Positions 5,061-52,751 of a stretch of 64,000 nucleotides of DNA are shown here, one piece after another. This stretch comes from Clavelina lepadiformis. Lineage: Eukaryota; Chordata; Ascidiacea; Aplousobranchia; Clavelinidae. The position numbers and the translations under genes are program-made. The notes beneath the pieces are model-generated. The model was given only the letters and a program-made list of their open reading frames with translations. It searched no databases and was not told where the DNA came from. The stretch spans positions 994,501 through 1,058,500 of the forward strand of contig NC_135246.1 of the NCBI RefSeq assembly GCF_947623445.1. Reading direction: 5' to 3'. Each line of letters opens with the position of its first letter. Within the stretch, counting starts at the first letter, position 1.

Positions 5061-5334
5061 GTTGTTCTTGCTAGCTTGTATGCCATTGCCAACTACTACC
5101 AGCTGTTGTTCCTAGCTTGTATGCCAACTACTACTAGCTGTTGTTCCTAGCTTGTATGCCAACTACTACCAGCTTTTGTTACTGGCTTGTATGTCAACTA
5201 CTACTAACCGTTGTTCTTACCTTGTATGCCAACTACTATCAACTTTTGTTACTAGCTTGTATGCCAACTACTACCAGCGTTGTTCCTAGCTTGTATGCCA
5301 ACTACTACTAGCTGTTGTTCCTAGCTTGTATGCC
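5061..5334. repeat. 35-bp minisatellite, first array (about 7-8 copies)
   Basis: Tandem copies of a 35-bp unit whose core reads CTTGTATGCCAACTACTACC followed by AGCTTTTGTTCCTAG. Copies differ at a few positions (CAGCTG or CAGCTTT, CCTAG, CTGG or TTAC). The array begins seven bases after the TA-flanked transposon. Confidence 0.9.
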
Positions 5335-5744: not shown

Positions 5745-6017
5745 TATGCCAACTAATACCAGCTCTTGTTACTGGCTTGTACGCCAACTACTACTAGCTT
5801 TTGTTACTGGCTTGTATGCCAACTACTACCAGCTTTTGTTCCTACCTTGTACGCCAACTACTACCAGCTTTTGTTCCTAGCTTGTATACCAACTACTACC
5901 AGCTTTTGTTACTGGCTTGCATGCCAACTACTACCAGCTTTTGTTCCTACCTTGTATGCCAACTATTACCAGCTTTTGTTCTTAGCTTGTATGCCAACTA
6001 CTACCAGCTCTTGTTCC
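5745..6017. repeat. 35-bp minisatellite, second array (about 8 copies)
   Basis: Same 35-bp unit as the array at 5061-5334, from which it is separated by about 410 bp of unrelated sequence. Because 35 is not a multiple of three and the unit has few stops, all three forward frames stay open and give repetitive ORFs; these are artefacts, not genes. Confidence 0.9.
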
Positions 6018-12800: not shown

Positions 12801-15792
12801 CCTGAGTCGTCTTTGTTTTTATTGTGATGTAATAAGAGTCGCTATCACTACGTCTTAAAAGAGCCAAATTTGCGATATATTTTAGGCAATTGTAACGTTC
12901 GTGAATGTGTACTGCGCTACTGGACGTGTAACAGTAACGTCCGACAATGTTACAAGCCGACTTGTGGCTGTCATTGCTTAATCAAGCGAGTTGGAGGCTA
13001 AAGTTGATGTTATTTCGCGGCTACTCCTCGATATTTCATCTTAAAGCGTCAATTATGCTTGCTAGTAGAGTTGTCCTAGGAATGACTTACATACGATCAG
13101 ATAAATACATGTTAATTTCAAGTTGTTTTATTAGTTCGACCGTCCGAGTTAAAAAAGCTCGACATGTTGAAGTGGCCACTACGAAACGCTACATCTTTCA
13201 CTGTTGGAAAATTAAGTGTGTCAAGACAGATATACCCTATACATTGTTCATACAACTTGAGAGTAAATGCTTACGTAAGCACGGTTTGTAACCATATACG
13301 GCATGGTAATGTAACAAAGGGAATCACAGTGACGATTGCGTCACAAAATAACGTGGTGGTCCGTGGTCCTCACGTGGTGAGCGAGTCTGAATGTACGAAG
13401 TGCGCTTCTCGCTTGCGCAGGTGTTAACTGGCTGCGTCTGTTCTTTCGTGTCGTTTAATTTTACAAGTTAATGACTTAGGTGGGTCGAGTAGCACGGACT
13501 AGATGTTACCATTTTGAGATTATTATTGAGAGCTTTTTGTAGGAACCAAGTGTTTTGGTTTGTTTAAAACTTGTGTTTATTCGCAGATGATTATGTTTTA
13601 CCAGGGGGTCACATTTCCAGAATTTATAAACCAGATTTCAAAAAATTGCGTTGAATAAAAACATATATTCAGTTCCCAAAAAAATAGGGTTTACTAACAA
13701 AGAAATCAGTAAAATAAACAGTTTGTTTGTGACAGTTTGTTGATGGAATTCACGAAGCTAACAAGGCAAAATATGTTTTGTTTGCTGAAACACCTGCATA
13801 TAAATCTAAATTCAAATCCGCTTCAATTCTGAGTTAAGGATGAATATTTGTTAATAAATAATTTGTTCGAAAGAGAATTAAAAATGTTAATAATTTTTTT
13901 AATATGTACAATAGCTTAATACTTTTTCTTCAGTTTAAGATGTTTGCTTGTCATTTTGCTAAATAATGATTTCCTTGTTTGTTTGAACAATTTCATTCAT
14001 TTAGCGACCGTTTATGGCAGAGAAAATCGGAGTTCTTTACATTTTGTGGCAACAACAGTTTTAGTTAGAACAGGTTGGTCAGATTGGTCAGGTTTGCCGT
14101 TCATTAAATTTTCCCAAAAGTCGTGTTTGGACTTTGATTTTCTCTCGATTTATTTGGGTCAACTTTTAGAGTTTTGTTTTTTCTTGACTTTACCGTGAAC
14201 CTCACTAACCACAATGTTAGAGAGGACGCATAGGAAGGTGATTTTATTGACTAGTGCATGTGAATTTACAATATAATAATAATAATATAAATAAATTTAA
14301 TATATTAGGACAATAAATTATAATACAACGCAAATGAATTGTGAAACAAATGCGTGTTAAACCAATTCATGCAAATTTCACAGCATAAGCCTATATATGT
14401 CATTCGTGTGTGTGAACTTCTCGTTACTTGACAGGCACCTTGATTTCATTCATCTTATTGGGTTTTAAGTTGAATTTGTATGTTTGTTCGTTATTTGTAG
14501 ATTCGTGGCGATACATAGACGTATTGTTCGATTGGTATTTTTTTGTCGTCACGTGATATCTATTAATTTCATGTACTTTTGTGCAATGTTTTGTATTGAG
14601 TGAACGAAGCACTCCCTGTAGCACAGGGTGTAGAATTTAACGTCTCGGTTCAGTTTGTTTGGCCGCATAATGTAGTATTTTATTACAGAAGGAATTCCGC
14701 GCCGGTTACGCAACTTCCCTTGCCGTAAATATTGTCAAAATAAGCAGTCCAGTTGTGAGTGTTGGCAAGGCAACGGCTTTAATTCGTGCAGTTATTTTTA
14801 ACTGCGGTTTTGATTTGATTTTGCGGTGTTTTCCACTTCGGTTTCTACACTTTGCCTATCTTAGCTTTGAACTATAAATTGTTCTAAAAATATTTTTCTT
14901 CTCTTTTTGTCCGTGCACATTCCGTAAGACGCGAAGTGGAACAGCAAAGAACGGTGACGCTTTTGTTTCTTTCAACTGCGTGGTAATGCAAGAATCGAAC
15001 TTGTTTGTCTTTGTACGCACGTTGTTCTTGTCACGCCATTTGTCAGTACATAGGAATCTGCTATAACAGCAAGCGCCATCACAAAGCCTTATCCTGAATT
15101 ACAGTATTGAAGTATAACGCTTCATCAATACTTACTCATAGCAACATCAGTCGAACTAAAGAATCAAAATGCAAAACCATTTCTTCTGTCACAAAATTGG
15201 TTATAAAAAATGAAAACGAAACAGTTGGTTCTGTTTGCAACCTTTCTAATAGGTTTTGTTTTCAATACATATTGTGTATGTATATCGTTTTAAATTGTTG
15301 CACAGATGCAAATTTTGTAAAGATTGAAACTGAATTTTTGCGACCTCATGAGGTCGGGTGTACTTAAATTTGTCTGAAACTTGACGTAAGGATCGAGCAA
15401 TCTGGTGCGCAATTTGGTATATAAGGTTTCCTCCTCCGCACCACGTAGCTTGTACAAGGCGCACAGTTTGAATTCATTATTTCCACAAGCAATAAATAAT
15501 TAATGAGAAAAGTAAATAAAACAAATAAATAAATGAAATTCGAGACGGCACCAAAACATTTATCTTTCTTTTGTATGATCAAGGCTTTTGGTTTGGTGAA
15601 GACATTAGTTGGTGTTTTAATAAAACTCAAACTCTGTTTTATTTTTGTTTGCTCTTATCCTTAAATGTACTATCATGAACTACTTTGTTTCAAAAAGTCG
15701 CATCAATTTAGCTATTTTGAAACCCACGGGGTGCGTTATATTTTGTTTGTAGTAATCTCATTAGGAAGATTGATTTTTGTGATTCAAAGAAA
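12801..15792. other. Intergenic stretch before the repeat-exon gene, no supported gene
   Basis: Several ORFs of 60-115 codons occur on both strands (for example 12947-13291 plus, 14424-14624 minus) but none shows a known motif or sits between good splice sites. Nothing else recognised. Confidence 0.5.
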
Positions 15793-18700
15793 ATGAATTT
15801 GTGTTGCATTGCACTTGTCGTTGTCTGCTGTATACAAGCATCCGAGAGTGGTAAGTGTTTCATAAAGACACTTAGACCTACCGTGTGTAGTTTGGTTATA
15901 CCTATAGCAATTAGTTCCTTATTAGTTATTACGTCACAAAGTTCATTACCGCTTATCGTCATCGTTATTATAAAGTCTACTCGCCCAGCATGTACAGTAA
16001 AGTTCCATATACACGTAGTTATTTTAACCAGAAATCCCATTAACGTTTTAAGTTTTATGTAAAACACATGTAACAAATTTTATCTCTGTCTTTTGCAGAA
16101 ACGACGACAGGATCGGCCGAAGGAAGTAATGTTACTATACAACCGATAAGAAATTATTGTTCTTTTACATAAACATATTTAATTGGTTATTTCGAATGCC
16201 AGCTTTGTGTGATTTAGGCTTTATTGCAATATAGGATATTTTAATATATTACTGATTTCCCAAAAAACTCTGTTGATGGAAATATTGTTCAAGCAAAATC
16301 GAGCCCGTTTCAATAAATGTTTCGTCACCTGTATCTTTTGCTGCCGATATTTCATAATGACGTAGCCTAATAGTAATTTTGTTTCTCTGCTTAAGGTGGA
16401 ACGAACTCACCCACCGATGAAAGCGTTACAAGTAAGCCATGTTAAACACAGCTTTCAGTTTTTGTCGTTTGCAATTTTACACTTTCTTTTGGCCGCTCCC
16501 TTTACATTAATTCTGAAACCTCTTTTACGAAAGATGGAAACACTTTTACTCAGACTTTTACTGTACTTTGCACTTTTCCTTTTACTTTTACTGAAGTGGA
16601 AGCATTTATTTGGTAATTTTCGATAGCTTGCCAAGCGTATACAGTAAAGTTTCGTATAGACGTAGTTATTTTAGCCAGAAATCCCATTAACGTATCAAGT
16701 TTCACGAAAATCTCCTGTTACGAATTCTATCTCTGTATTTTGCAGATAGAATGACAAGACCGGCCGAAGGAAGTAATGTTACAATACAACCGATAAAAAA
16801 TTATTGTTCTTTTACATAAACCTATTTAATTGGTTATTTCGAATGCCAACTTTGTGTGATTTAGGCTTTGTTGCAGTGTAGGTTGTTTTAATCTATGACT
16901 GATTTCCCAACAAACTCTGTTGATGGAAATATTGTTCAAGCAAAATCGAACACTTTACAATAAATGTTCCGTTACCTATATCTTTTGCTGCCGATATTTC
17001 ATAATGACGTAATAGCAATTATTTTTCTCTGTTTAAGGTGGAATGAACTCAACGACCGATGAAAGCGTTACAAGTAAGTCATGTTACATACAGCTTTCAG
17101 TTTTTGTCCTTTGTAATTTTCCACGTTCTTTTGGCCGCTTCCTTTCCATTAATTCTGAAACTCCTTTTACGAAAGATGGAAACACTTTTTACTCAAACTT
17201 TTATTGTAATTTGCACTTTTACTTTTCCTGAAGTGGAAGCATTTATTTGGTAATTTTCGAGAACTTACCCAGCGTATACAGTAAAATTCCATATAGACGT
17301 AGTTATTTTAACCAGAAATCCCATTAACGTATTATGTTTCGCGTAAATCACCTGTTACAAATTCTATCTCTGTCTTTTGCAGATAGAATGACAAGACCGG
17401 CCGAAGGAAGTAATGTTACTATACTACGCATAAGAATACATTGTTCATTTTCATAAACATGTTAATTGGTTATTTCGAATGTCAACTTGGTATGATTTAG
17501 GCTTTGTTGCAGTTTATAACATTTTAATATATTACTGATTTCCCAACAAACTCTGTTGATGGAAATATTGTTCAAGCAAAATCGAGCCCGTTTCAATAAA
17601 TGTTTCGTCACCTGTATCTTTTGCTGCCGATATTTCATAATGACGCAATAGTAATTTTTGTCTCTCTGTTTAAGGTGGAACGAACTCACCGACCGATGAA
17701 AGCGTCACAAGTAAGCCATGTTACATACAACTTTCAGTTTTTGTCGTTTGCAATTTTCCACTTTCTTTTGGCCGCTCCCTTTACATTAATTCTGAAACCT
17801 CTTTTACGAAAGATGGAAACACTTTTATTCAAACTTTTATTGTACTTTGCACTTTTCCTTTTACTTTTACTCAAGTGGAAGCATTTATTTGGTAAATTTC
17901 GAGAGCTTGCCAAGCATATACAGTAAAGTTTCGTATAGACGTAGTTATTTTAACCAGAAATTCCATTAACGTATCAAGTTTCGCGTAAATCATCTGTTAC
18001 AAATTCTATCTCTGACTTTTGCAGATAGAATGACAAGACCGGCCGAAGGAAGTACTGTTACTATACAACCGATAAGAAATTATTTTTCTTTTACATAAAC
18101 ATATTTAAATGGTTATTTCGAATGCCAACTTTGTGTGATTTAGGCTTTATTGCAATGTAGGTTATTTTAATACATTACTGATTTCCCAACAAACTCTGTT
18201 GATGGAAATATTGTTCAAGCAAAATCGAGCACTTTACAATAAATGTTTCGTCACCTGTATCTTTTGCTGCCGATATTTCATAATGACGTAATAGTAATTT
18301 TGTTTCTCTGTTTAAGGTGGAACGAACTCACCCACCGATGAAAGCGTCACAAGTAAGCCATGTTACATACAGCTTTCAGTTTTTGTTGTTTGCAATTTTC
18401 CACGTTCTTTTTACCGCTCCCTTTACATTAATTCCGAAACCTCTTTTACGAAAGATGGAAACACTTTTATTCAAACTTTTACTGTACTTTGCACTTTTCC
18501 TTTTACTTTTACTGAAGTGGAAGCATTTATTTGGTAATTTTCGAGAGCTTGCCAAGCATATACAGTAAAGTTTCGTATACACGTAGTTATTTTAACCAGA
18601 AGTCCCATTAACGTATCAAGTCTTATTTAAAACTCCTGTAAAAAATTCTATCTCTGTCTTTTGCAGATAGAATGACAAGATCACCCGAAGGAAGTAATGT

Positions 18701-21700
18701 TACTATACAACCGATAAGAAATTATTTTTCTTTTACATAAACATATTCAATTGGTATTTTGAATGCCAACTTTGTGTCATTTAGGCTTTGTTGCAATATA
18801 GGATATTTTTATATTTTACTGATTTTCCAACAAACTCTGTTGATGGAAATATTGTTCAAGGAAAATCGAGCACGTTTCAATAAATGTTCCGTAAGCTGTA
18901 TCTTTTGCTGCCGACACTTTATAATGAACCAATTTTTATAAAATTAATTTTAGTAATTTTGTTTCTCTGTTTAAGGTGGAACGAACTCACCGACCAATGA
19001 AAGCGTTACAAGTAAGCCATGTTAAACACAGCTTTCAGTTTTTGTCGTTTGCAATTTTCCACGTTCTTTTTACCGCTCCGTTTACATTAATTCTGAAACC
19101 TCTTTTACGGAAGATGGAAACACTTTTTACTCAAACTTTTAATGTACTTTGCACTTTTACTTTTACTGAAGTGAAAGCATTTATTTGGTAATTTTCTACA
19201 CCTTACCCAGCGTATACAGTAAAGTTCCATATAGACGTAGTTATTTTAACCAGGAGCCCCATTAACGTATTAAGGTTGGCATAAATCACCTTTTACAAAT
19301 TGTATCTCTGTCTTTTGCAGATACGATGACAAGATCACCCGAAGGAAGTAATGTCACTATACAACCGATAAGACATTATTTTTCTTTTACATAAACATAT
19401 TTAACTGGTTATTTTGAATGCCAACTTTGTGTGATTTAGGCTTTGTTGCAGTCTATAACATTTTACTATATGACTGATTTCCCAAAAAACTCTGTTGATG
19501 GAAATATTGTTCAAGCAAAATCGAACACGCTTCAATAAATGTTTCGTTACCTATATCTTTTGCTGCCGATATTTCATAATGACGTAATAGTAATTATTTT
19601 TCTCTGTTTAAGGTGGAATGTACTCACCGACCGATGAAAGCGTCACAAGTAAGCCATGTTAAATACAGCTTTCAGTTTTTGTCGTTTACAATTTTCCACG
19701 TTCATTTGGCCTTGCCATTTCCATTAATTCTGAAACCTCTTTTAAGAAAGATGGAAACACTTTTACTCAAACTTTTACTGTACTTTGCACTTTCACTTTT
19801 CCTGAAGTGGAAGCATTTATTTGGTAAATTTGGAGAGCTTCTCCATGGAATACAGTAAAGTTCCATTTACACGTAGTTATTTTAACCAGAATTCCCATTA
19901 ACGTATCAAGTCTTATTTAAAACACCTGTAAAAAATTCTATCTCTGTCTTTTGCAGATAGAATGACAAGATAACCCGAAGGAAGTAATGTTACTATACAA
20001 CCGATACGAAATTATTGTTCCTTTACATAAACATATTTAATTGGTTATTTCAAATGCCAACTTTGTAAGATTTAGCCTTTGTTGCAGTCTAGGATATTTT
20101 AGTTCCATTGATAAGGATATAACCTTGGTATCTTTACAAACTCTGTTAATAGAAATCTTGTAACGTCCATTCGAGTACGTTTCAATAAACGTTCCGTCAA
20201 CTATACCTTTTGCTGCCGATATTTCATAATGACACCATTAATTTTTACAAAATTAATTTTATTAATTTTTTGTCTGTTCAAGGTGGAACGAACTCACCGA
20301 CCGACCGAAGCTTTACAAGTAAGTCATGTTACTTAGCATATTGCTCAACCACGCACTACGTCTTATCATGCTGGAGTACCGTGCGCATATAAGAAAATGT
20401 AATTTGTTGTTTCTCACATTTAGACAGTATTGCTGTTCTTACTATTTACTTGCAGTTAAGCATAGGGAGACGAAACTTTAAAGCGTTATAGTTGTATTTA
20501 TTTTTCACTCGAAATCTAACAATGTACACTTTAAAATATTTGCAATGTGTCTATACAGTCAGGTTTCGTGAAAGCACAAGTTTTCAAAGTACAAGAGATC
20601 CTGCCACTGGTAAGATTTGTTTTCAGTCACAAAAATATTTTGAAGATCATCCTGCTTGAGTAAGCAATAAATTCAAATCCAAACGCAATTAAACATTACA
20701 ACAAACTCCTTTTTTTGCAGGATACCCAGATAATCCAACAACAACAACAATGACAATTGAAGAATCATCAGCTTATACAGCAACCGGTAAAATGATTAAT
20801 TTTCTACAAAACTTATTGCAAGAGGTGAAGGAAGGTCATCCATTAACCACGCATTAAAGCTCTTTTTTTAATTAAACATGCTAGCACCACCAACGAGATT
20901 TCACATGGTCATAAAAAAATGTGCAACGAACCTTAAAAGTTCAGTTCTGTACTTCAGCTGTGGCCGGTAAGTGGCAAACGACCACTAGATCGGTAAATCG
21001 CAGTATAAGGTAAAGTTAAAAGTTAAATAGACCTTTACTTTACTTTTTACATTCAGGTCACTTCAGGTCATTACATTGTTACATCGGTCGCATCTGCACC
21101 AAGGAACATAACAACAAGAATTTATAAAAAAACAACGGATATGAAAGTGAAAAAAATCTTCCATCAATCTCTCATGTCACACTTATACAAACAGTTCCCA
21201 AATAACTGTATTTTAAGCGATGCTTCCCAGTTTTTAAAACATTCAATATTTTCCATGAGGTCCTCAAACCATATTTGCTTCAACTCCTTTATAAACTCCA
21301 CGCGCACGTCCAATGGCGACGACTTCACGCTTTGATGTCAACGGTTTACTCACAGAGAGAAACGTCAAAATACCCGAATAACATGCTTAGATTTTGGCAA
21401 ATTTACAACTACAGAGCATTTAGAACAAGAAGGGAAGAATCTTGAGTCCGAAAACAATGGCGGAAAAACGAGAAGTTTTAGGAAAAGTTACCAAATTTAG
21501 ATTTATTGTTTGTTAACAAAATTTAATATTCAAAATAAACGTACTAAGTAAAAGCGAGTCAAGTTCAGTCAGTTCTTTAAATAACAATCACCAGGGCGAT
21601 AGTTTGGAGAAGGATATAATTTAATTTTGGAAAATTCGATTTTTTTAAATTTCATTTTAAGTCATTTTTGATTTTTCCTTTTTTAAATTTAATTAAATTT

Positions 21701-22771
21701 TTTCCTTAAAATATAGTTTTTAAAAAATAGTGTTTATGGTTTAGAACTAAACAGAAAATATTCAACTTCAATTAGGATTTGTTTTGGTTTTATTTTGCTG
21801 TATTTTATATTTTTGTAGAAAACACCAGGTTTTCATTCGCAACAAGGCCTGAAACAACAACAAATACAACCACTGGCAAGTTTTTTCTATCGCCCATTTA
21901 ACTTGAAAAGGGTTTTATGCGGTTGTGCCCGGATTAAATATTAATTCGATTTGAATAAAAGGCTTTATTTTAGCCCTAATCTGTATTTGTCTCATATTCA
22001 ACAACTATCTGTTCATCTTAGATCCACCCGTTCCGGTCTGTCCTGTATTAAACAGCAATTGTGCCTCGGTGAGATACTCCACATGGCTTTGCGATCACAT
22101 TCGATGGAAAATAACGTTGATGGTTGACTGGCAGCCTGCATTTGAGTCTTGGTGGTAAGCTGGTTGCAAATCACAGCAACCAAATCTTTTCTTGATCGAA
22201 AACCTTGAAGCATGTCAATAATTTCAAAACTTAATTAAGTACAGCTAGTGTCTAACATATCTAACCACTCATTCAACTAAGCATTGTGTTGCGCCTTTGA
22301 CGTTCTGTGACCTAATTATATAAAAAAAACTCGGTAAAATATTACATAAAATATGATGTTTGTAGGAACGAAAACCAGTCCGGAAGTTTGCCTTTTCCCG
22401 CTTGCAATCACCTTGACGTGTCTTGCAAACATCCCGATGAATGGGACGTAGTGTTTGTTGGAAATGGATGTTTCATTCCATTTTGTAAAGATGGATACTG
22501 TAAAATTTTGATACAATTCGTGAAAAGTCAAAAAGCTTAGAACGAGAAAAACCTTAAAATAGTATTAATAAATAAATTAATCTTATTAGTAATTCAGTAT
22601 TGTACAATTACACCACATACAGTTTTTAAAATACAACTTACAATTTAATAAAAGAATGCTTTGTCATTAGATGAGACCGGAGTTAATACTGCCACCCAGT
22701 GGAAGGCTGACTATGAAGAATGGCGTCAGATCTTCAATAGATGGCGTCAAGCGCTTCGCAGCGAAATGTAA
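15793..22771 (+). CDS. Unrecognised secreted protein with tandemly duplicated exon pairs and Cys-rich C-terminus
   Basis: Exon 1 (15793-15850) encodes a clear signal peptide, MNLCCIALVVVCCIQASES. Seven exon pairs follow. The A exons are 27 nt: 16099-16125, 16746-16772, 17383-17409, 18025-18051, 18667-18693, 19321-19347, 19957-19983. The B exons are 36 nt: 16396-16431, 17038-17073, 17675-17710, 18317-18352, 18976-19011, 19613-19648, 20283-20318. Then come 20721-20786 and 21819-21875 (Thr-rich), 22022-22154 and 22366-22499 (seven Cys), and 22671-22771. Every exon through 21875 is phase 1-1. One pair adds 21 residues, for example NRMTRPAEGSGTNSPTDESV. With all exons the frame is about 329 codons, but A7 contains an in-frame TAA; leaving out this symmetric exon keeps the frame. 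Reading through the 22499 donor gives an alternative end at 22540. The intron after 21875 would start with GC. A mucin-like or otherwise secreted role is inference; I recognise no family. Confidence 0.7.
15980..20330 (+). repeat. Seven tandem ~640-bp units, each with exons A and B
   Basis: The spacing of successive A exons is 647, 637, 642, 642, 654 and 636 bp; of B exons 642, 637, 642, 659, 637 and 670 bp. Intron sequence is conserved between units almost as well as the exons, including CAGTAAAGTTCCATATA upstream of A, the 3' splice site GTCTTTTGCAG, and the TTTTGCTGCCGATATTTC block upstream of B. The last unit is the most diverged. This is recent segmental duplication of a two-exon cassette inside a gene. 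Confidence 0.93.
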
Positions 22772-26185: not shown

Positions 26186-29100
26186 ATGGAAGAAAAGAAA
26201 AGAATTTGTCATATTCAAAAAGGTAAGGTTCTAAAGATCGAGACTTGTTTATAAGCAAACTCGAAAGCAGTTTAAAGCAGGTATTACTTGTTTTACAAGG
26301 TTCGAATGGTTTTGGTTTCATTTTGTGTTGCGAGAACGACACCACCGAAACCTACGTCTTGCACGTCATGAATTCATCCCCAGCCTGCGTGGCAGGTTTG
26401 AAGCCCGGGGACCGCATAATAGAGGTATAACAACCGTATAAGATCTGTTTTTACATGGTCAGTAGTTGATGTTTGGTTTAATACTTCCAACTGTGTTCGA
26501 TGAAACTTGCGTTTGTAACGTTCATAACAATGTTTGTTACATCAAAGTTTTTTTAGGTCAACGGTTTAAACGTGGAAAAAGAAACTCATAAAGACGTTGT
26601 ACAACGTTTACAAGGTAAAATATCATAAACAAACGGTTAAACGTCATACTTCGATATACTTACGCAGGATATGCGACAGTGCACAAATTGCAAACGTCAC
26701 TGACAGTTTTTCCTAATCTCAGGCTTACAGAGCATCCGTCTTCTTGTGGCGCACAACACAAGTGCTGAAAGTTACTTCAAGCAACCGAGCAACGGAATGA
26801 CTGTGAAACCTATAGAAGCATGCGATAATAGCCTGAGACCTAAACTCATAACCGTGACCAGGAACGATCAGGTAGTTTTTGTGCCAAGAATTCATGGTGA
26901 TGGGTCATTGAATTTTGAAAGTCTGTTCTCCAACGAGACTAACTATTACCTACGATTGTGTGGTATAATGGTGAGGGTGCTGTAGTTGAGGAGCTCACGA
27001 CCTGAAGATAAAACAACACAAGCGTTTTATAAATTTCACAGGAACCATAAAATGTTGATAAATGCAGCAAAATTTTTATCATTTTTGCAAGTTTTACAAC
27101 ATTATGATGAGTTAGGAGACATGAAATGTTAATTAAAAAACGTCCAAAAATGTTTGATGTTATGCTGTCTGCTAGAGTCAGTGCGTATAAGCTTAGGATC
27201 TGTTTTGACGTCACTGGTTAATCGTCTGAAGTGCAAATAAGCTTACGTCACAGATGCGATGCGAAAAATATGGATAATGTCAGTTTCATTAAGTTCGTGT
27301 TGACTATTATTATTTAACGTTGATTTTGCTGCTAATTTAATTAGATTTTCATGTTGTTGTCAATAACATTTTTGGTGCTATTTATAGTATTTTATAGACA
27401 CAAACGACAGATTAATTAGGCTACGCTCATACGCTGAGTGACGTAACAATCAACTACCAGTGCGCGGCATGAAGAGAGAATATTTAAACTTGTGCGCTCA
27501 AACTAAGGCACAAAAACTGCTTCTAGAGGCTATACGCACTTTCAAACTTTACACATTTTGTGACTTGACAAAGCTGCTTCAGTAGTGAACAATAAATGCC
27601 TGGTTGGTTGTGAGTCGGTTTCATGTTTAGCCATTAATGTAAACATTGCTATTAAACGCAGCCATTTATTGTAACATAACGAGAAAATTGTCCAGATAAC
27701 TGTCTCCATTGAAAGCAATTTGGTGACCCCCACTTGAAAATAAATACTAACATTTGTGGTTAGCTCCTAATCCGTCTGGGAATAAATTACGTGACCGAGG
27801 GAAATTCACTAAACTGGTTTAACTATTATCACAATTGGACCAGTGAGGCCAGTGAACCATAAATATCTCCCTTCCGTTCATCACTTAACAAAAATGAAGA
27901 AAACGTTTTGCAACGAACTTTACGACACCGTTTATATGGGCTCAAATGTTAACATACTTGTTGACGTTTGGTAGAAAATCGGCGAAAATGACTTGAAAAA
28001 GTTTTCATTTTTTTCTGGCAGGGCTTTGACTTCGTCCTGCAAAGTTTTGGCAAATCTCTTACAACTGCCTCAGGCAATCATCGGCAGCCAATGAAAGGAG
28101 TAGCTGGTACATAGATCTGTATGCCTTCTGTGCAATGTCTAATAAACTTTAATAGACTTAAATACTACAGCATGAAAAATCAAGTAAACAGCAATGAAAA
28201 CTTTACAAAATTAAGCTCTTTCGAAAACAATAACTACACCAAAATTTACATCCTAGCCTGGTTATTTAATTTAGTTAACGTTTGACATAACATAACATTT
28301 TTTATAGTTCAGTTACAGTAATGTTTTTCTAAATGGACGTTTATAGAGTTTTATTCTACAGTGTGTTTTTTTTATTTAATTTGACGTCTATACCTGATGT
28401 TCTTGTTATAATGTGATCATATTTTTCTTAAACACATCAGGTCATTTTGTGGAAAGCGTTCGTCTGGGTGGTGTGGCCCACACTGCGGGTTTGAGAAAGG
28501 GACATCGGATCATAGCAATCAACGGAACATCGGTTGAACAGGTGGGAACTTTGATACGATCAGCAACTTGGTCCTTATGTACCTTGTAGCTTACATTTTA
28601 CCGACCACCTTTTTCAGGAGACGCACGCCTATCTCATAGCCGCCATAAAATCGTCGACATCCATCGACATTCTAGTCGTCGATTACGACACAGATGAATT
28701 TTTTCGTCGGCATGGAGTCGCACCTTCATCTAAACATCTCACAGGCATTTTGGATTTCAGTAGTCGGTCGAAATCATCCAGTTCAACTGGTGGGTTATTG
28801 GCAGTTGGTGCCCTATATCTTAACTGATAAGTGGACCGCTTAACAATATCGTTTATATTTATTATCTATGAGTTGAAGTGTTTGTTTAATCGTTAAGTTG
28901 TTGTATGCAAAACAGTGCCAAAGTAGGTGACACATAAAAACAAAATGATTAGCTCAAGACTAATCAACTTCCCGATAACCACTTTCCACAAGGGACAAAT
29001 TGTTTTTCTTAAATGTTATGAAACCGATGGCAAAGACGCTTCGAAAAATTACGAACTTTCCTGTTCTGGAGTCTTGGTATTTCCAGTCGTAAATCTTGAT

Positions 29101-31583
29101 ATTTGTTGATCTTTTTATTTGATCGCTTCTGTCGCCGTCTTTGGCTTCTGTCCGCGATGTCGATAAATCGCTGCTTGTTGCAAGTCTCGGTATAAATCTC
29201 TACCGCCCGAATGTCCATGTCCCAGAGCAATGAGAGCATTTTCGCTTTGTCATTGTTCGTAACTGATTCGAGTAAATTCGGTACATTCGGTACTGATTCG
29301 GGTAAATTCGGTACATTCGGTACATTCAGTACTGATTCGGGTAAATTCGGTAGGCTACATTCGGGTACATTCAGTACTGATTCGGGTACATTCGGTACCG
29401 ATTCGGGTAAATGCGGTACATTCGGGTACATTCGGTACTGATTCGGGTACATTCAAGGCTATCTGGTGACTGATATGGTGTTTGCAGAAGCCTCGTTGGA
29501 TAAATGCAAGGATTTCGTTGTGTCGTTTTAGATAATCTGTCTGTGCGATCTTCTGGCAGTCGGTGAGGAGATGAGATTTTGTTTTATCTTTCCACTTGCA
29601 TAGTCGACACGTTGGAATGTTTGATATCTTGAGCACCTTTGTTTTGTGGCATTTGGAAATGCCAAGATTAAAACAGCTTGAATTTGAGCTGCTTCCTTTT
29701 CTATTTTGACGCCACACTGTTTCAACCAGGTGCTATCTACGTCCAGGTTTTCCTACTTACAAGAACTTACAACTTCTAATTATTTCTTCTATGCGTTGTT
29801 TCTTCCATACATGGACACATAGGCGTAGCCAGGGGGAGGGGGTGAAAGGTGCCATGCCCCCCCCCCCCCCAATTTTTGTGTCTATAGGCTTCTACATCAG
29901 GTGGCGGTGTCTTAAAATAAACACTTTGTAGTTCCCTTGAACTCATTAAATATTTGACCACCCCCAAATTTTTTTTATGGCTACGCCACTGCCACTGCAT
30001 GGACATTGCTGTCGGATGCGCCTAGCCATGGACGATTTGGTCCCCATCCTGTGTTTTATTCCATAGACATTCAGTACGTGTCGCTCTTTCATTTGTATTA
30101 TGGCAGTCTTTATGCTACTGAGTTTTCCTTGTCTGCAACCGACGTAGCAGCGGTGGACAGAACACCGACTTTTAGATAAACAGCGCCACGTAGCGTATGC
30201 GTCTCTCTGGTGATTTGGCCAAAGCTGTAAAAGCTTGTTTACCCGGAAAATTTCCGGCAGTGTAGCTCGCCACTGCAACTTACAACTCGCCACTTGCCAC
30301 TGGAACTTACCACTCGCCACGCCACTGATAAGTTGCTGAGTCGGCGTTGATGGCTTTTGTTTTGCGTTTCCCAGGAAATTTTAATTTCAGGAATTGGCGC
30401 AGTCTTTCCTGTATTTCTCTGCAATTTTCTTCTTAATCTTTATGGTCATATTCTCGTAATGCCGATGGATACCTATAAGTATACTTTGAATCTATGTGCG
30501 GTGTCTGGGAGACGAACAAGATAATTTAACAAGACAAACCTTCTTTACCTCAAATTTTTATTATTGTTATTATGCTATTGTTCGTACTGTTTTTTTTATA
30601 TCATCTTTGTTTTATTATTTTGCTTATTAATTGTTTGGTTTATTTGATTTTATTTAAGAAAGTATTACGAAACTGTAATGTACTTACAATTGTCATCAAT
30701 TAATCGACACCATGTTGATGTTGGATATGTTGCTTGACATTTCTCAGAAACTGAAGCGCAACCAACAGGCAAGAAAAAGAACAATCGAAGAATGGCGTCG
30801 TCAACGTCAGACACGAGACCACAGAGCGAATTGTCGATACTCAAGTCATTTCGAAACATGACCAGGGATCAGAGAAAATACGCTCGTTCGACTCCAGACC
30901 TCTCAAAACTGGGAAAAAATGACGCAAGGAAAGAGGAGAATGCTCCGGACGACAATCCCTTGCCCGACTTCAATCGGCACAAACGATCTAACAAGGCCAA
31001 GAAAGAAATCAAACGACAATTAAGCAAATTGGACAAACGCGGCCCAGCCAAATACCCCGGCAAGGTCTCGTTGTCAAGTGGCCGCAACCTGTACGATGAG
31101 GTGGTGATATCCGACGAGGAAGAACGAAATAAATCGACCCTGGGAAGCTCGTCTAGCTGCCGAACCGAGAGCAAGCCCCTAGATGTTCCTAAGAAGAATC
31201 CTTTAAGCACGAGGTACCACACGGTGCATAGCTACCTTGCAGCACTGTAGGCCTAACGTCAAAGTTTATTGGAGAAGGTTTTGTTGAATTTCGAATTTTT
31301 TTTATTCAGGTTGGCAGTCGAAGATGGCGATAGCGATTTGAAGATGAGGAAAGCGCGAACGCGTCTCAAAACTATCGAAGATGAACACATACCGGCAAAC
31401 GGCTCTCCATCCCCCGGGTACGAACCGCCCAGGGACCTCTCCTGTGTCGGCTACAACATCGACCTTGCGACTCTCAAGGACCGAGTCGGGCAAAAGACTC
31501 GCGAATCGAAATCGGGAGTTGCGAGGTCCAAGTCGAAACTTTCAGATTACAGTTTAGCTCATATTTACGTGAACAGTTACTGA
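26186..31583 (+). CDS. NHERF-like scaffold protein with two PDZ domains, 9 exons
   Basis: Exons: 26186-26222, 26300-26424, 26557-26614, 26723-26871, 28022-28106, 28441-28541, 28618-28789, 30748-31213, 31310-31583; phases fit throughout and give 488 residues. PDZ1 (about 6-85) starts RICHIQKGSNGFGF and contains GLKPGDRIIEVNG. PDZ2 (about 112-215) has the binding loop GFDF, then GLRKGHRIIAINGTSVEQ, and ends with LVVDYDTDEFF, a hallmark of the NHERF (SLC9A3R) family that tethers membrane transporters and receptors to the cortex. PDZ2 carries an unusually long loop between its second and third strands (residues about 128-155). Residues 244-488 form a Lys/Ser-rich, probably disordered tail; I do not see the ezrin-binding motif of NHERF1/2 at the end, which reads AHIYVNSY. 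The joining of exon 7 to exon 8 across a 1.96-kb intron rests on phase only; exons 8-9 could belong to a separate protein. Confidence 0.82.
29060..29720 (-). mobile_element. 3' fragment of a LINE (R2/NeSL-like C-terminus) in an NHERF-like intron
   Basis: On the minus strand, 29720-29460 encodes a CCHC zinc motif typical of non-LTR retrotransposon pol C-termini (CRLCKWKDKTKSHLLTDC) followed by YLKRHNEILAFI. Further along, 29260-29060 encodes KMLSLLWDMDIR, FIDIA and KINKYQDLRLEIPRL, matching the end of the restriction-like endonuclease region of such elements. The two parts are in different frames and separated by a minisatellite. No reverse transcriptase domain remains, so this is a dead 5'-truncated copy. 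Confidence 0.75.
29263..29454. repeat. Minisatellite expanded inside the LINE fragment
   Basis: Irregular tandem copies of blocks such as CTGATTCGGGTAAATTCGG and TACATTCGGTA. Read on the minus strand they encode repeats of NVPESVPN. The position corresponds to a Pro-Glu-Ser-Val segment just before the LLWDMDI motif of the LINE, so the array seems to have grown from LINE coding sequence. Confidence 0.85.
29818..29997. mobile_element. hAT-type MITE, 180 bp, with G/C homopolymer runs
   Basis: The ends share the inverted motif GGCGTAGCC (left CATAGGCGTAGCC; right, other strand, CAGTGGCAGTGGCGTAGCC). Perfect 8-bp flanks CATGGACA lie at 29810-29817 and 29998-30005. The interior has a run of 14 C at about 29857-29870. 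It sits in intron 7 of the NHERF-like gene. Confidence 0.8.
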
Positions 31584-41793: not shown

Positions 41794-42602
41794 GGGCTAC
41801 ACCGTGACGCGACACCTGATCGAAAGACACTTTATCGAACGACACTTAATCGAACGACACTTTATCGAAAGACACTTAATCGAACGACACCTGATCGAAA
41901 CGACACCTGATCGAAACGACAGTTGATCGAACGACACTTTATCGAACCGAAAGTTGATCAAACGACACTTTATCGAACCGACAGTTAATCAAAACGACAG
42001 TTGATCGAACGACACTTTATCGAACCGACAGTTCCAGCAAGATTTTTGCGTGTTTCTCAAACATTGAAACAATGAGTCATTGTGATGTTCAGCTATCTGT
42101 CCATGTTTGTTTGATAAAGTTGGATTTTGTAATTTTTGAGATATTGTGATATTTATATAATTTTGCTCTCTCTCCGCATTGAAGCGTATTACTCATTTAC
42201 GCACCAATAACTTGACTAACTATTCTTTTTCGTTCTCTTTTCACAGCGGGGGCGCGGCGTAACAAGAAGAATTTATAGAAATGTGTCTAGAAACTAGAAA
42301 TACCTAATTTACACTAAATTCACTTTCTTTAGTTTTACAATTATGATGTATACAGGAAGCCAGATGATGTTTCTACTAACCTGTAATAATCTCATCAGTC
42401 TACGACGCATAGTTTTCTAGTAATTAACGATTGCAAATGTGTGTGCGGGGTTGGCCACACCTAGTTTTTTTAGTAAACTCGCGAGCCTGGTTAGGATAGG
42501 GTTAAAAGATCCACAATTTATCGAAACAACTGACGATATGCACTGTTAAAAGCACGACAACTGACGAAGTGCACATTTCAATCGCATTCATTTAATTACA
42601 AG

Positions 42603-43031: not shown

Positions 43032-43675
43032 CGAAGCCATTTATTTTGCGCTGTCGGTCAAGCTGGGATAAAGACCACTTTCAAGAAGCTACTTTGTGTA
43101 AAAGTCAGGCAGCGACATGCCCCTTGCTATAAAATTTTGCCTTCAATTCCTTACTCTTTGTATCTATAATGACTAGTCTAGTCTACTGTACAGACAATCT
43201 CGTACTTAGTAATTCTCGTGCGTATTCTTGTGATATCTTATTAATATGTGGGCGGGCCGGCCGCCATGCGAAATCGAACACTTTATGATACAAATATAAA
43301 ATATAGATATAAAATATAAATCGTCAACTTTATGATATATACATCACAATTCATTAATGCACACCATTACAAAGACCGCACATCACAATGGCTCATTGTT
43401 TCAATGTTTGAGAAACACGCAAAAATCTTGCTTGAACTGTCGGTTCGATAAAGTGTCGTTCGATCAACTGTCGTTTTGATTAACTGTCGGTTCGATAAAG
43501 TGTCGTTCGATCAGCTGTCGGTTCGATAAAGTGTCGTTCGATCAACTGTCGGCTCGATTAACTGTCGTTCGATAAAGTGTCTTTCGATCAGCTGTCGTTT
43601 CGATCAGGTGTCGTTCGATAAAGTGTCTTTCGATAAAGTGTCTTTCGATAAGGTGTCATAGTACCGGGCTACACC

Positions 43676-50500: not shown

Positions 50501-51227
50501 CAACAGGTGGGCTTTAACATTCCATTGCAAGAGTTGGAGATATGTCATGTTTTAGAATTTCATGAAATATTATAGCCTGAGACATACTAAAGTTGCGTAC
50601 AAAATTTCAGGGCGCTCAATGCGGGGTTTTTCGATTAATTGCCTGTTTAGTAATTTGACCTTACAATAACGCAAAGTAAAGCATTTTTACAAGCATATAC
50701 GGTATGTGACTTAACAATGCGTTAAATAGAGAACATATAATGACGTTATAAAGACAAGAAAAGGATAACCGTAGTAGTTAGAAGGCCACTAATCATTTAG
50801 AAATACTGCTTGCATAGCTGCGCATTATTTATTACTTACCGGGTGTTGTCTTATTTTGAGTAACGGGCATGCCAATGAAGCTTTTTAATGTAGTTCGTGG
50901 TCTAGTGATCCAAGAGATACTGACAGATAACTTCGCATGGGTACATAATCTTTGATGGTCTGAATTGCAACAGGTTATAAATTTATTACCTAAATAGTAT
51001 CGTATCTTACATACGTGGAAAGGTCTACTCCATTTTGCAGGATCATATATACTGTTTTTTGCTTAAAATTTAAAATTCTGTAGGCTTAGATTTTGAAAAG
51101 AAAGTAGCCCATAAATTCATTCTCGTTTGTTAATTCTGTTTCTAATATAGTGGTATAAATTAATTGTTCGTTTCTTTAGACACTGTACTTTTGGTAGATG
51201 ATTACTATCTGACCGTCTTATGTTAAG
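47600..51227. other. Divergent intergenic region between UPRT and SLC43, with duplicated pieces
   Basis: Two sequence blocks occur twice. One, AAAGACAAGAAAAGGATAAC onward, is at about 49275-49350 and 50752-50830. The other is an exon-like block at 50428-50507 and 50899-50972, each preceded by TTTTTAATGTAG and ending CAACAG-GT; the first copy reads PGPVIQEKLTDNFTWVHNLG and on without a stop, the second has one stop. They may be untranslated or lost exons upstream of the transporter; an acceptor TTTCTTTAG lies at 51180, 47 bp before its ATG. Confidence 0.45.
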
Positions 51228-52751
51228 ATGGCGTATAAATGTAAGTATTGGCTGAGTGCCGGGACCGCCGTCATAGAAGGTTTATTCTTCAGTGGAATAA
51301 TTTTCGGTTGGTCCTCAATCACTTGCGTGCTTAAAACAAAAGGATACTTCAGTTATTTGTGTGAAGATTCAGACGACAGTATTGTCTCGTTGTCAAATAT
51401 ATCTCAAGCCAATTCAACATCAGCCCCAGTGTCAAATTCTTCAACATGTTCGTCGTGTCGTGCTCAAGATGAATCCATCAACTTGGTTTTCACTGTAGCA
51501 AGTGCTGTGCTATCATTTTCTGCTTTCCCAAACGGATATGTCTTTGATCGCTTTGGCACTTGGGTATCTCGACTTATGGCAGCTATTCTTGTGACACTTG
51601 GTGGTATTTTAATGTCCATTTCGACAGTTAGCACATCTTGGCTGCTTTTTCCCGCCATGTGTAGCTTCGCCATTGGCGGGATTTTGCTTCTTGTCACAAA
51701 CATGCAGCTCGGAAATCTGTTCGGTAAAGCTCGATCGTCGGTGATCACCCTCCTAAATGGCGCACTCGATTCTTCTTCATTTGTTTTTCTTCTCATAAAA
51801 CTTGCTTACGAAAACGGAATAGACTTGACGACCATTTTTGTCTTCTTTTCTTGTTGCACGTTGTTTCTATGGATAAGAACATTCATCTTAATGCCTCGGA
51901 TGCATATTCCGTTCCCGTTGCCCAAAAAGGGAATTGAATATGGTTTGAAAGATTGTCGTTCGAAAAAGCAGAGTGATGAACACACCCTTTCTAACAAAGA
52001 GGAGGAGCGTGAAGAAATGATGTCAGCAGACGTGGATTTGAAGAAGAGTGAATCATACTGGACTTATCTAAAAACTGGGAAATTTTGGATGAATGTAATG
52101 CATTTTAGTGTTCTGCAATTAAGAAATTATTTCTTTCTCGGTACGCTTGTGAATTGGTTGAAATTTTTAATGTCTCCCGACTACAGTGATTTGGGTACTT
52201 ACCTAAATGCTTTTGGAGTTTGTCAGTTTTTTGGTGTTCTTACAGCGCCACTGAATGGAATGCTCATCGACAGCTGCATAAATTGGATGAAGAAATCGGA
52301 CGCTGACGAGTCGGTGGTAACAGCCAAAGCTGTTGCTCTTTCTGGATTTGTGACAACCACTCTTGGTGTAATCTTTTCCTTGGTTGTCATTATTCCATCA
52401 GTCAAAGTTCAGTACGCGTCTTTCATATTGCAAGTGCTTTTCAGGTCCTTCTTATATGGTGGTAATTGTAGCTTCGTAGCACTTTTATTTCCCAGCGAAC
52501 ATTTCGGAAAACTGTACGGAATGACAATGACACTAGCTGGCCTCGTCACTTTGTTTCAGTTTCCGCTCTTTAGTTTGGTGCTGCGGGTTTTTGAATCCGA
52601 CTTTCTTTTCATAAACGTAGCATTCATGGTGGTGTGCTTGCTAACTTACATTCATCCCGTCACTTTATACTATAGCAGCTGCCAACAGCAGAAGCAAAGT
52701 AAAAAGAGTGCTAACTCAGGAAAGAATGGAATATTACAAGCTGAGGCCTGA
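51228..52751 (+). CDS. SLC43-family transporter, closest to SLC43A3 (nucleobase transporter)
   Basis: A single uninterrupted 507-codon frame. It follows human SLC43A3 along its whole length: GIIFGWSSITCV and GYFSYLC near the start, QDESINLVFTVAS, FPNGYVFDRFGTWVSRL (major facilitator loop 2-3 motif), GGILLLVTNMQLGNLFG, ITLLNGALDSSSFVFLLIK, LMPRMHIPFPLP, the long charged central loop (about 240-275), FLYGGNCSFVALLFPSEHFG and LFQFPLFSLVL. Twelve membrane segments are expected. The first outer loop (45-80) has several N-x-S/T sites. Mammalian SLC43A3 moves purine nucleobases; SLC43A1/A2 move neutral amino acids, so substrate is inferred from the closer match. It lacks coding introns, unlike the vertebrate genes, which may mean retroposition or intron loss. 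Confidence 0.92.
   Translation: MAYKCKYWLSAGTAVIEGLFFSGIIFGWSSITCVLKTKGYFSYLCEDSDDSIVSLSNISQANSTSAPVSNSSTCSSCRAQDESINLVFTVASAVLSFSAFPNGYVFDRFGTWVSRLMAAILVTLGGILMSISTVSTSWLLFPAMCSFAIGGILLLVTNMQLGNLFGKARSSVITLLNGALDSSSFVFLLIKLAYENGIDLTTIFVFFSCCTLFLWIRTFILMPRMHIPFPLPKKGIEYGLKDCRSKKQSDEHTLSNKEEEREEMMSADVDLKKSESYWTYLKTGKFWMNVMHFSVLQLRNYFFLGTLVNWLKFLMSPDYSDLGTYLNAFGVCQFFGVLTAPLNGMLIDSCINWMKKSDADESVVTAKAVALSGFVTTTLGVIFSLVVIIPSVKVQYASFILQVLFRSFLYGGNCSFVALLFPSEHFGKLYGMTMTLAGLVTLFQFPLFSLVLRVFESDFLFINVAFMVVCLLTYIHPVTLYYSSCQQQKQSKKSANSGKNGILQAEA

Follow-up and report, generated by a model that had tools for sequence, protein, structure and literature searches.

The cassette array and the predicted protein

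Can very short exons, multiplied in tandem, build a secreted protein of adjustable length in a chordate? The question is raised by a locus on chromosome 7 of the ascidian Clavelina lepadiformis, contained in the 64,000-nucleotide stretch of DNA analysed here (the window; 36.3% GC, zero N), where an earlier note had described a signal-peptide exon, seven units of ~640 bp each carrying a 27-nt and a 36-nt exon of phase 1-1, and Thr-rich and Cys-rich exons after them. This description held: a plus-strand gene model of 20 exons, running from an ATG at 15793 to a stop at 22771, comprises in order exon 1, seven pairs of exon A (27 nt) and exon B (36 nt), T1, T2, C1, C2 and C3 (Table 1), with a summed length of 990 nt, which is divisible by 3. 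The seven units recur at a spacing of 636–654, all seven A and all seven B exons are bordered by AG and GT, leaving the 28 cassette splice borders intact, and every junction before the first Cys exon (C1) is in phase 1. Symmetric micro-exons of 27 or 36 nt account for 14 of the 20 exons and 441 of the 990 coding nt.

We consider it likely that this nuclear gene encodes a secreted, mucin-like protein of ~320 residues, in which a signal peptide is followed by a Ser/Thr-rich stalk, adjustable by cassette number and with exon A probably optional, and by a Cys/Trp-rich C-terminal domain. The secreted product guessed at in the earlier note is thus retained as probable, its stalk apparently assembled from symmetric exon pairs of which whole units could be gained or lost without harm to the frame. 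The further claim, that any subset of exons keeps the frame, is right as regards exon symmetry but passed over an in-frame TAA in A7: with A7 skipped the chain has 963 nt and 320 residues, whereas with A7 included the frame ends at that codon. Also overlooked were the weak donors of exon A and a paralogous gene family, both described below.

With A7 omitted, the stalk of 185 residues contains 44 Thr, 27 Ser, 17 Pro and 17 Glu and lacks Lys (Ser+Thr 38%, Pro 9%). Such a composition fits mucin-like glycoproteins in the broad sense, O-glycosylation being a prediction, and a stalk that is probably O-glycosylated would hold the C-terminal domain off a surface or space it in a secreted matrix. The motif EGSG is formed at every A–B junction (six copies, A7 omitted); its reading as a glycosaminoglycan site, typically a Ser-Gly with acidic residues nearby according to PMC8418075, was set aside, the resemblance being too weak to claim.

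A C-terminal domain shared with eight other genes

The Cys-rich exons, which the earlier note had singled out for a profile search, brought up relatives in the genome but no Pfam model at its cut-off and nothing significant among solved structures. The genome gave 12 matches to the domain of exons C1 and C2, belonging to the window gene and eight others. The window gene, L019 (C2:1.39 Mb) and L020 (C2:5.94 Mb, minus strand) account for two exons each, and six clustered loci (C2:23.84–23.91 Mb) for one each. Local searches found exon C2 at every one of the six cluster loci and C3 at all but L027, which gave no C3 match at E 0.5; C3 is also present in L019 and, by eye and with a weak match (E 0.066), in L020. 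In all nine genes the C1 donor falls at the same place, in phase 2, and the C2 donor is in phase 1, the C2 site of the cluster genes lying one or two codons later. Six of the nine family sequences, when aligned, have 14 invariant columns, among them five Trp and four Cys, and the window gene, in which the three C-domain exons are open, keeps all 14. The L024 and L026 proteins are identical over the parts read.

A pair of CUB domains (PF00431, E 1.7e-24 and 6.1e-24) marks L020 as an extracellular gene product, and the C-domain, itself probably extracellular, was left unmatched here by Pfam at its cut-off. Carried by eight other genes and split at matching places, this domain lends the gene model its support. 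A terminal exon running through C2 as far as 22539 had been considered and was dropped after the conserved C3 exon was found; the end coordinate in the earlier note already implies C3 as the last coding exon.

This last exon carries W-x6-W-x6-W in the window gene, L019 and L020, and W-x6-W-x6-Y in the aligned cluster sequences. It recalls the WAT (tryptophan amphiphilic tetramerisation) peptide of acetylcholinesterase T (PF08674), which according to PMC5943944 has W-x6-W-x6-W in a separate last exon; tryptophans seven apart, a C-terminal segment and a last exon of its own are common to both. Among solved structures the T peptide ranked first for both the domain profile (E 0.28) and the exon profile (E 0.45), neither match being significant, and PF08674 reached at best 6.8 bits against a cut-off of 25, in one of six members searched over the whole domain, with no match among five exon sequences taken alone. 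Pfam matched no cholinesterase domain in the window-gene protein. We regard it as a lead only that this exon with its heptad of tryptophans may drive oligomerisation.

Stalks of the paralogues

Paralogue stalks vary by means other than two-exon cassettes. A scan that selected phase 1-1, Ser/Thr/Pro-rich candidates, run without a chance-hit control, gave mini-exons of 48, 48, 42 and 39 nt in L019 (phase 1-1, 62–80% Ser/Thr/Pro), of which the 48-nt pair sits in direct copies ~2 kb apart and the final one, directly before the Cys domain, has a GC donor like that of T2 in the window gene. The candidates in L020 measure 63, 42, 42 and 60 nt, the two of 42 nt lying between a CUB domain and other exons and not preceding the C-domain. 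In the cluster genes the stalk is a single exon; the six genes (L021–L029, C2:23.83–23.92 Mb) have 0, 33, 12, 12, 1 and 0 tetrapeptides preceding the C-domain, the L023 stalk being a 12-nt satellite of 33 copies. These differences indicate that stalk length is labile across the family. If transcripts bear out the cassette reading, one family in one genome would lengthen the same stalk by three routes: tandem cassettes of two exons, symmetric mini-exons at scattered positions and a 12-nt satellite within an exon.

Pieces of a retroelement lie at L019 1284–4699 (minus strand), upstream of the L019 mini-exons, and one of the two open frames scanned there matches reverse transcriptase (PF00078, E 3e-18).

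Origin of the units and exchange among them

The seven units are in register, starting at 15932, 16579, 17216, 17858, 18500, 19154 and 19790, and are 78.9–92.1% identical in pairwise comparison. Their homology begins inside intron 1 (~15984) and finishes ~17 nt past B7, which places the breakpoints in introns; the stalk would have grown as a block with two symmetric phase 1-1 exons was duplicated in tandem. With units 1–2 as query, the genome (209 Mb, 95 contigs) gave at least six matches, self included, every one at this locus; an origin of the unit as a transposon was rejected, no copy outside the locus being found among the genome matches listed.

The history of the units is not tree-like. 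Among units 1–6, 55.8% of site pairs are incompatible (48 informative sites). Simulated on the best tree, 200 alignments averaged 27% incompatibility and peaked at 54%, none reaching the observed value, with 25 informative sites on average versus 48 observed. Incompatibility above all simulations argues for exchange or conversion between units, which would keep reshuffling them, so that unit number and stalk length could shift with the frame intact. Of the recent unequal exchange proposed in the earlier note, exchange or conversion is therefore upheld, although a spatial test (below) was negative, and ‘recent’ is relative, given that the units differ by 8–21%.

Coding status of the cassette exons

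The array on its own is no proof of coding. As the earlier note remarked, introns are nearly as similar as exons: similarity between units is 0.859 in A, 0.902 in B and 0.847–0.908 in the intron parts, with invariant columns making up 67%, 72% and 64% of A, B and introns respectively. Exons hardly more conserved than introns mean that conservation offers little independent proof of coding, and an almost flat profile is also what would be seen if the array were a non-coding tandem repeat within one long intron separating exon 1 from T1, its cassette exons arising by chance. We find this very improbable, since both exon lengths are multiples of 3 and match the phase of exon 1 and T1, the joined cassettes (146 codons) have one stop in the phase-1 frame against 7 and 11 in the other two, and Ser/Thr-rich content appears where L019 (candidate mini-exons) and three of the six cluster genes (at least 12 tetrapeptides) have Ser/Thr/Pro stalks. 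Six of the seven A exons and all seven B exons are open in frame, A7 being the exception. What speaks most for the cassettes is their position and phase: they lie in frame, with a signal exon on one side and a conserved domain on the other. Retention of the A–B intron to give one long exon was rejected: the span from A acceptor to B donor is 328–362 nt, divisible by 3 in two of the seven units, and has 4–10 stops in each frame.

Splice-site strength separates the two exon types. A weight matrix built from 17 donors and 16 acceptors of the paralogues, which is small and trained on exons called in the same analysis, so that its ranking is a guide, was scaled to the 3,882 GT and 3,141 AG of the window. 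It put A acceptors at the 98–99th percentile and B donors at the 99th, B acceptors at the 58–84th, and A donors at the 48th (unit 4: 16th), with scores of −1.0 or −4.1 for A donors versus 3.2 for the weakest reference donor when each was left out in turn. This pattern suggests that the A–B intron would be the weak link and A a doubtful or optional exon. Near-random donors, together with a nonsense codon that falls in the same exon type (A7), point to exon A as probably optional or decaying; B is probably the exon in regular use.

A stricter version of this asymmetry would have only the B exons with T1 and T2 as coding, the A exons being pseudo-exons with good acceptors and no usable donor; the protein would then have a 12-residue repeat and 266 residues, and the A7 stop would be irrelevant. 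The B-only chain is indeed in frame with zero stops, A donors lie at the 16th–48th percentile of window GTs, and pN is near pS in A (0.130 and 0.143, ratio 0.9) and half of it in B (0.079 and 0.158, ratio 0.5), these ratios resting on tiny counts (0.9–2.6 differences per pair in each class); overall, the ratio of pN to pS is 0.66, with 0.50 for units 2–6. We nevertheless hold it unlikely that A is never used, because strong A acceptors in all seven units, set against middling B acceptors, should lead a B donor to favour the next A acceptor, and because A, which is open in six of seven copies, is symmetric and keeps the phase.

Several observations weigh against a functional gene with a cassette-built stalk. 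A donors are no stronger than random GTs, so that A may not be an exon, and B acceptors are merely middling, below those of A. Stretches at least as conserved as A make up 42% of those 27 columns long, and for B and 36 columns the share is 24%. Because random changes create a stop in 4.8% of cases (~1 in 21), one stop among 32 consensus differences is roughly the chance expectation without constraint. The spatial recombination test found no clustering (p = 0.52 for units 1–6, 0.66 for all seven), which would mean that tracts are short or well intermixed, or that parallel changes play a part. The gene is known here from genomic DNA of one haplotype. Finally, the terminal Cys present in the aligned paralogues is absent from the window gene.

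This absence, combined with the A7 stop and a weak C2 donor (gtaaaa, versus gtaagt, gtgagt or gtgaga in the other eight genes), could mean that the gene is decaying: constraint would have been lost, consistent with exons barely above introns in conservation, and transcripts, if any, would end at A7 or be degraded. We judge decay quite unlikely, given that C1–C3 are open and retain the 14 columns invariant among the six aligned members, and that AG and GT are kept at every cassette border.

Comparison with known systems

The earlier note knew of no family with such a layout, but precedents exist. According to PMC2576457, genes for the polymorphic mucins of Schistosoma mansoni (SmPoMuc) carry a 27-bp exon within genomic repeats of ~1 kb arranged in tandem, with units more than 93% identical and their introns highly alike; Ser/Thr/Pro repeats follow exon 1 and precede more 3′ exons, the genes form a multigene family, unequal crossing-over and gene conversion are discussed, and variability of gene and transcript is shown. 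The window gene shares the short exon within tandem exon-plus-intron repeats (here 7 units, 27 + 36 nt), the Ser/Thr/Pro stretch after a first exon with a signal peptide (here recognised by eye) and membership in a multigene family. It differs in having two exons per ~640-bp unit rather than one per ~1-kb unit, in units that are 79–92% identical versus more than 93%, and in its host, an ascidian rather than a flatworm. The likeness is one of layout and composition.

Two other systems share the phase logic. Schistosome micro-exon genes (MEGs), according to PMC10526429 and PMC4671649, encode a signal peptide in the first exon and have central, mostly symmetric micro-exons, some products being Thr/Ser/Pro-rich; signal peptide, central symmetric micro-exons and possible frame-safe skipping recur here, whereas in the window gene micro-exons supply 441 of 990 coding nt, are near-identical tandem copies and are followed by a large Cys/Trp domain. 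In tropoelastin (ELN), two kinds of exon-encoded domain alternate with phase 1 borders and single exons are alternatively spliced, according to PMC3458006 and PMC7947355. The alternation and phase are the same here, but the spacer has Thr and Ser as leading residues and no Lys, and hydrophobic composition and Lys cross-links are absent.

By analogy, the window gene may work like SmPoMuc, MEGs and tropoelastin; membership in any of them is a separate claim that we do not make, and membership in the tropoelastin and WAT families each fails one tested feature. The layout has precedents in principle, and what is unusual is the two-exon unit and the ascidian host. A bolder proposal, put forward tentatively and with rather low expectation, is that the gene is a chordate counterpart of the schistosome polymorphic mucins: cassette number would differ between individuals and optional A exons between transcripts, through the strong A acceptor, weak A–B intron and strong B donor, and the new Cys/Trp domain would oligomerise like the cholinesterase tail.

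Should transcripts confirm the adjustable secreted protein, the SmPoMuc/MEG route to length-variable secreted proteins would have arisen separately in a tunicate. The locus is also a concrete place to ask whether filter feeders among the chordates maintain polymorphic secreted coats; public poly(A) RNA-seq (ERR10908613, named in PMC10884593) and an alternate haplotype (GCA_947623165.1) have already been deposited for the species. A literature search found no paper pairing Clavelina lepadiformis with mucin, and one on micro-exon genes and tunicates returned no micro-exon-gene paper among the matches listed; the layout may nonetheless have been reported in tunicates.

Coordinates and other features of the window

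Table 1. Exons and repeat array of the predicted gene (window positions)
Feature	Position	Strand	Remarks
Exon 1	15793..15850	+	Start codon and signal-peptide-like MNLCCIALVVVCCIQASES; phase 1 end at G/gtaagtg; signal peptide recognised only by eye
Array of seven units (half intron, exon A, intron, exon B, half intron)	15932..20345	+	Spacing 636–654
Exon A1, 27 nt	16099..16125	+	
Exon B1, 36 nt	16396..16431	+	
Exon A2	16746..16772	+	
Exon B2	17038..17073	+	
Exon A3	17383..17409	+	
Exon B3	17675..17710	+	
Exon A4	18025..18051	+	Donor gtactg, weakest of the seven A donors
Exon B4	18317..18352	+	
Exon A5	18667..18693	+	
Exon B5	18976..19011	+	
Exon A6	19321..19347	+	
Exon B6	19613..19648	+	
Exon A7	19957..19983	+	In-frame TAA inside
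Exon B7	20283..20318	+	Clear homology with other units stops ~17 nt 3′ of B7
Exon T1, Thr-rich, 66 nt, phase 1-1	20721..20786	+	
Exon T2, Thr-rich, 57 nt, phase 1-1	21819..21875	+	GC donor (gcaagt)
Exon C1, Cys domain	22022..22154	+	
Exon C2, Cys domain	22366..22499	+	Weak donor gtaaaa
Exon C3, last coding exon	22671..22771	+	W-x6-W-x6-W segment and stop codon

An acceptor-like stretch, tatattttgtttgtag, read by eye at window 15737–15752, lies 40 nt 5′ of the start codon; it might mark an acceptor for trans-splicing or the point where an intron in the 5′ UTR ends.

No known RNA or tRNA genes were found within the window. Elsewhere in it, two arrays with closely similar 35-nt units occupy 5087–5334 and 5745–6017, with ~400 bp between them, and on the minus strand at 29009–29732 two overlapping frames in different phases run across a ~21-nt tandem repeat (29276–29454), one of them giving a Pro/Val/Glu/Ser-rich peptide. 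Inverted arrays of a ~15-nt unit at 41810–42088 and 43380–43657, whose best arms are 190 nt long, 95% complementary and 1291 nt apart, look like a foldback or MITE-type (miniature inverted-repeat transposable element) sequence. A 512-aa open frame without a stop at 51213–52751 encodes an MFS transporter (PF07690, E 2e-16), which may be SLC43-like.

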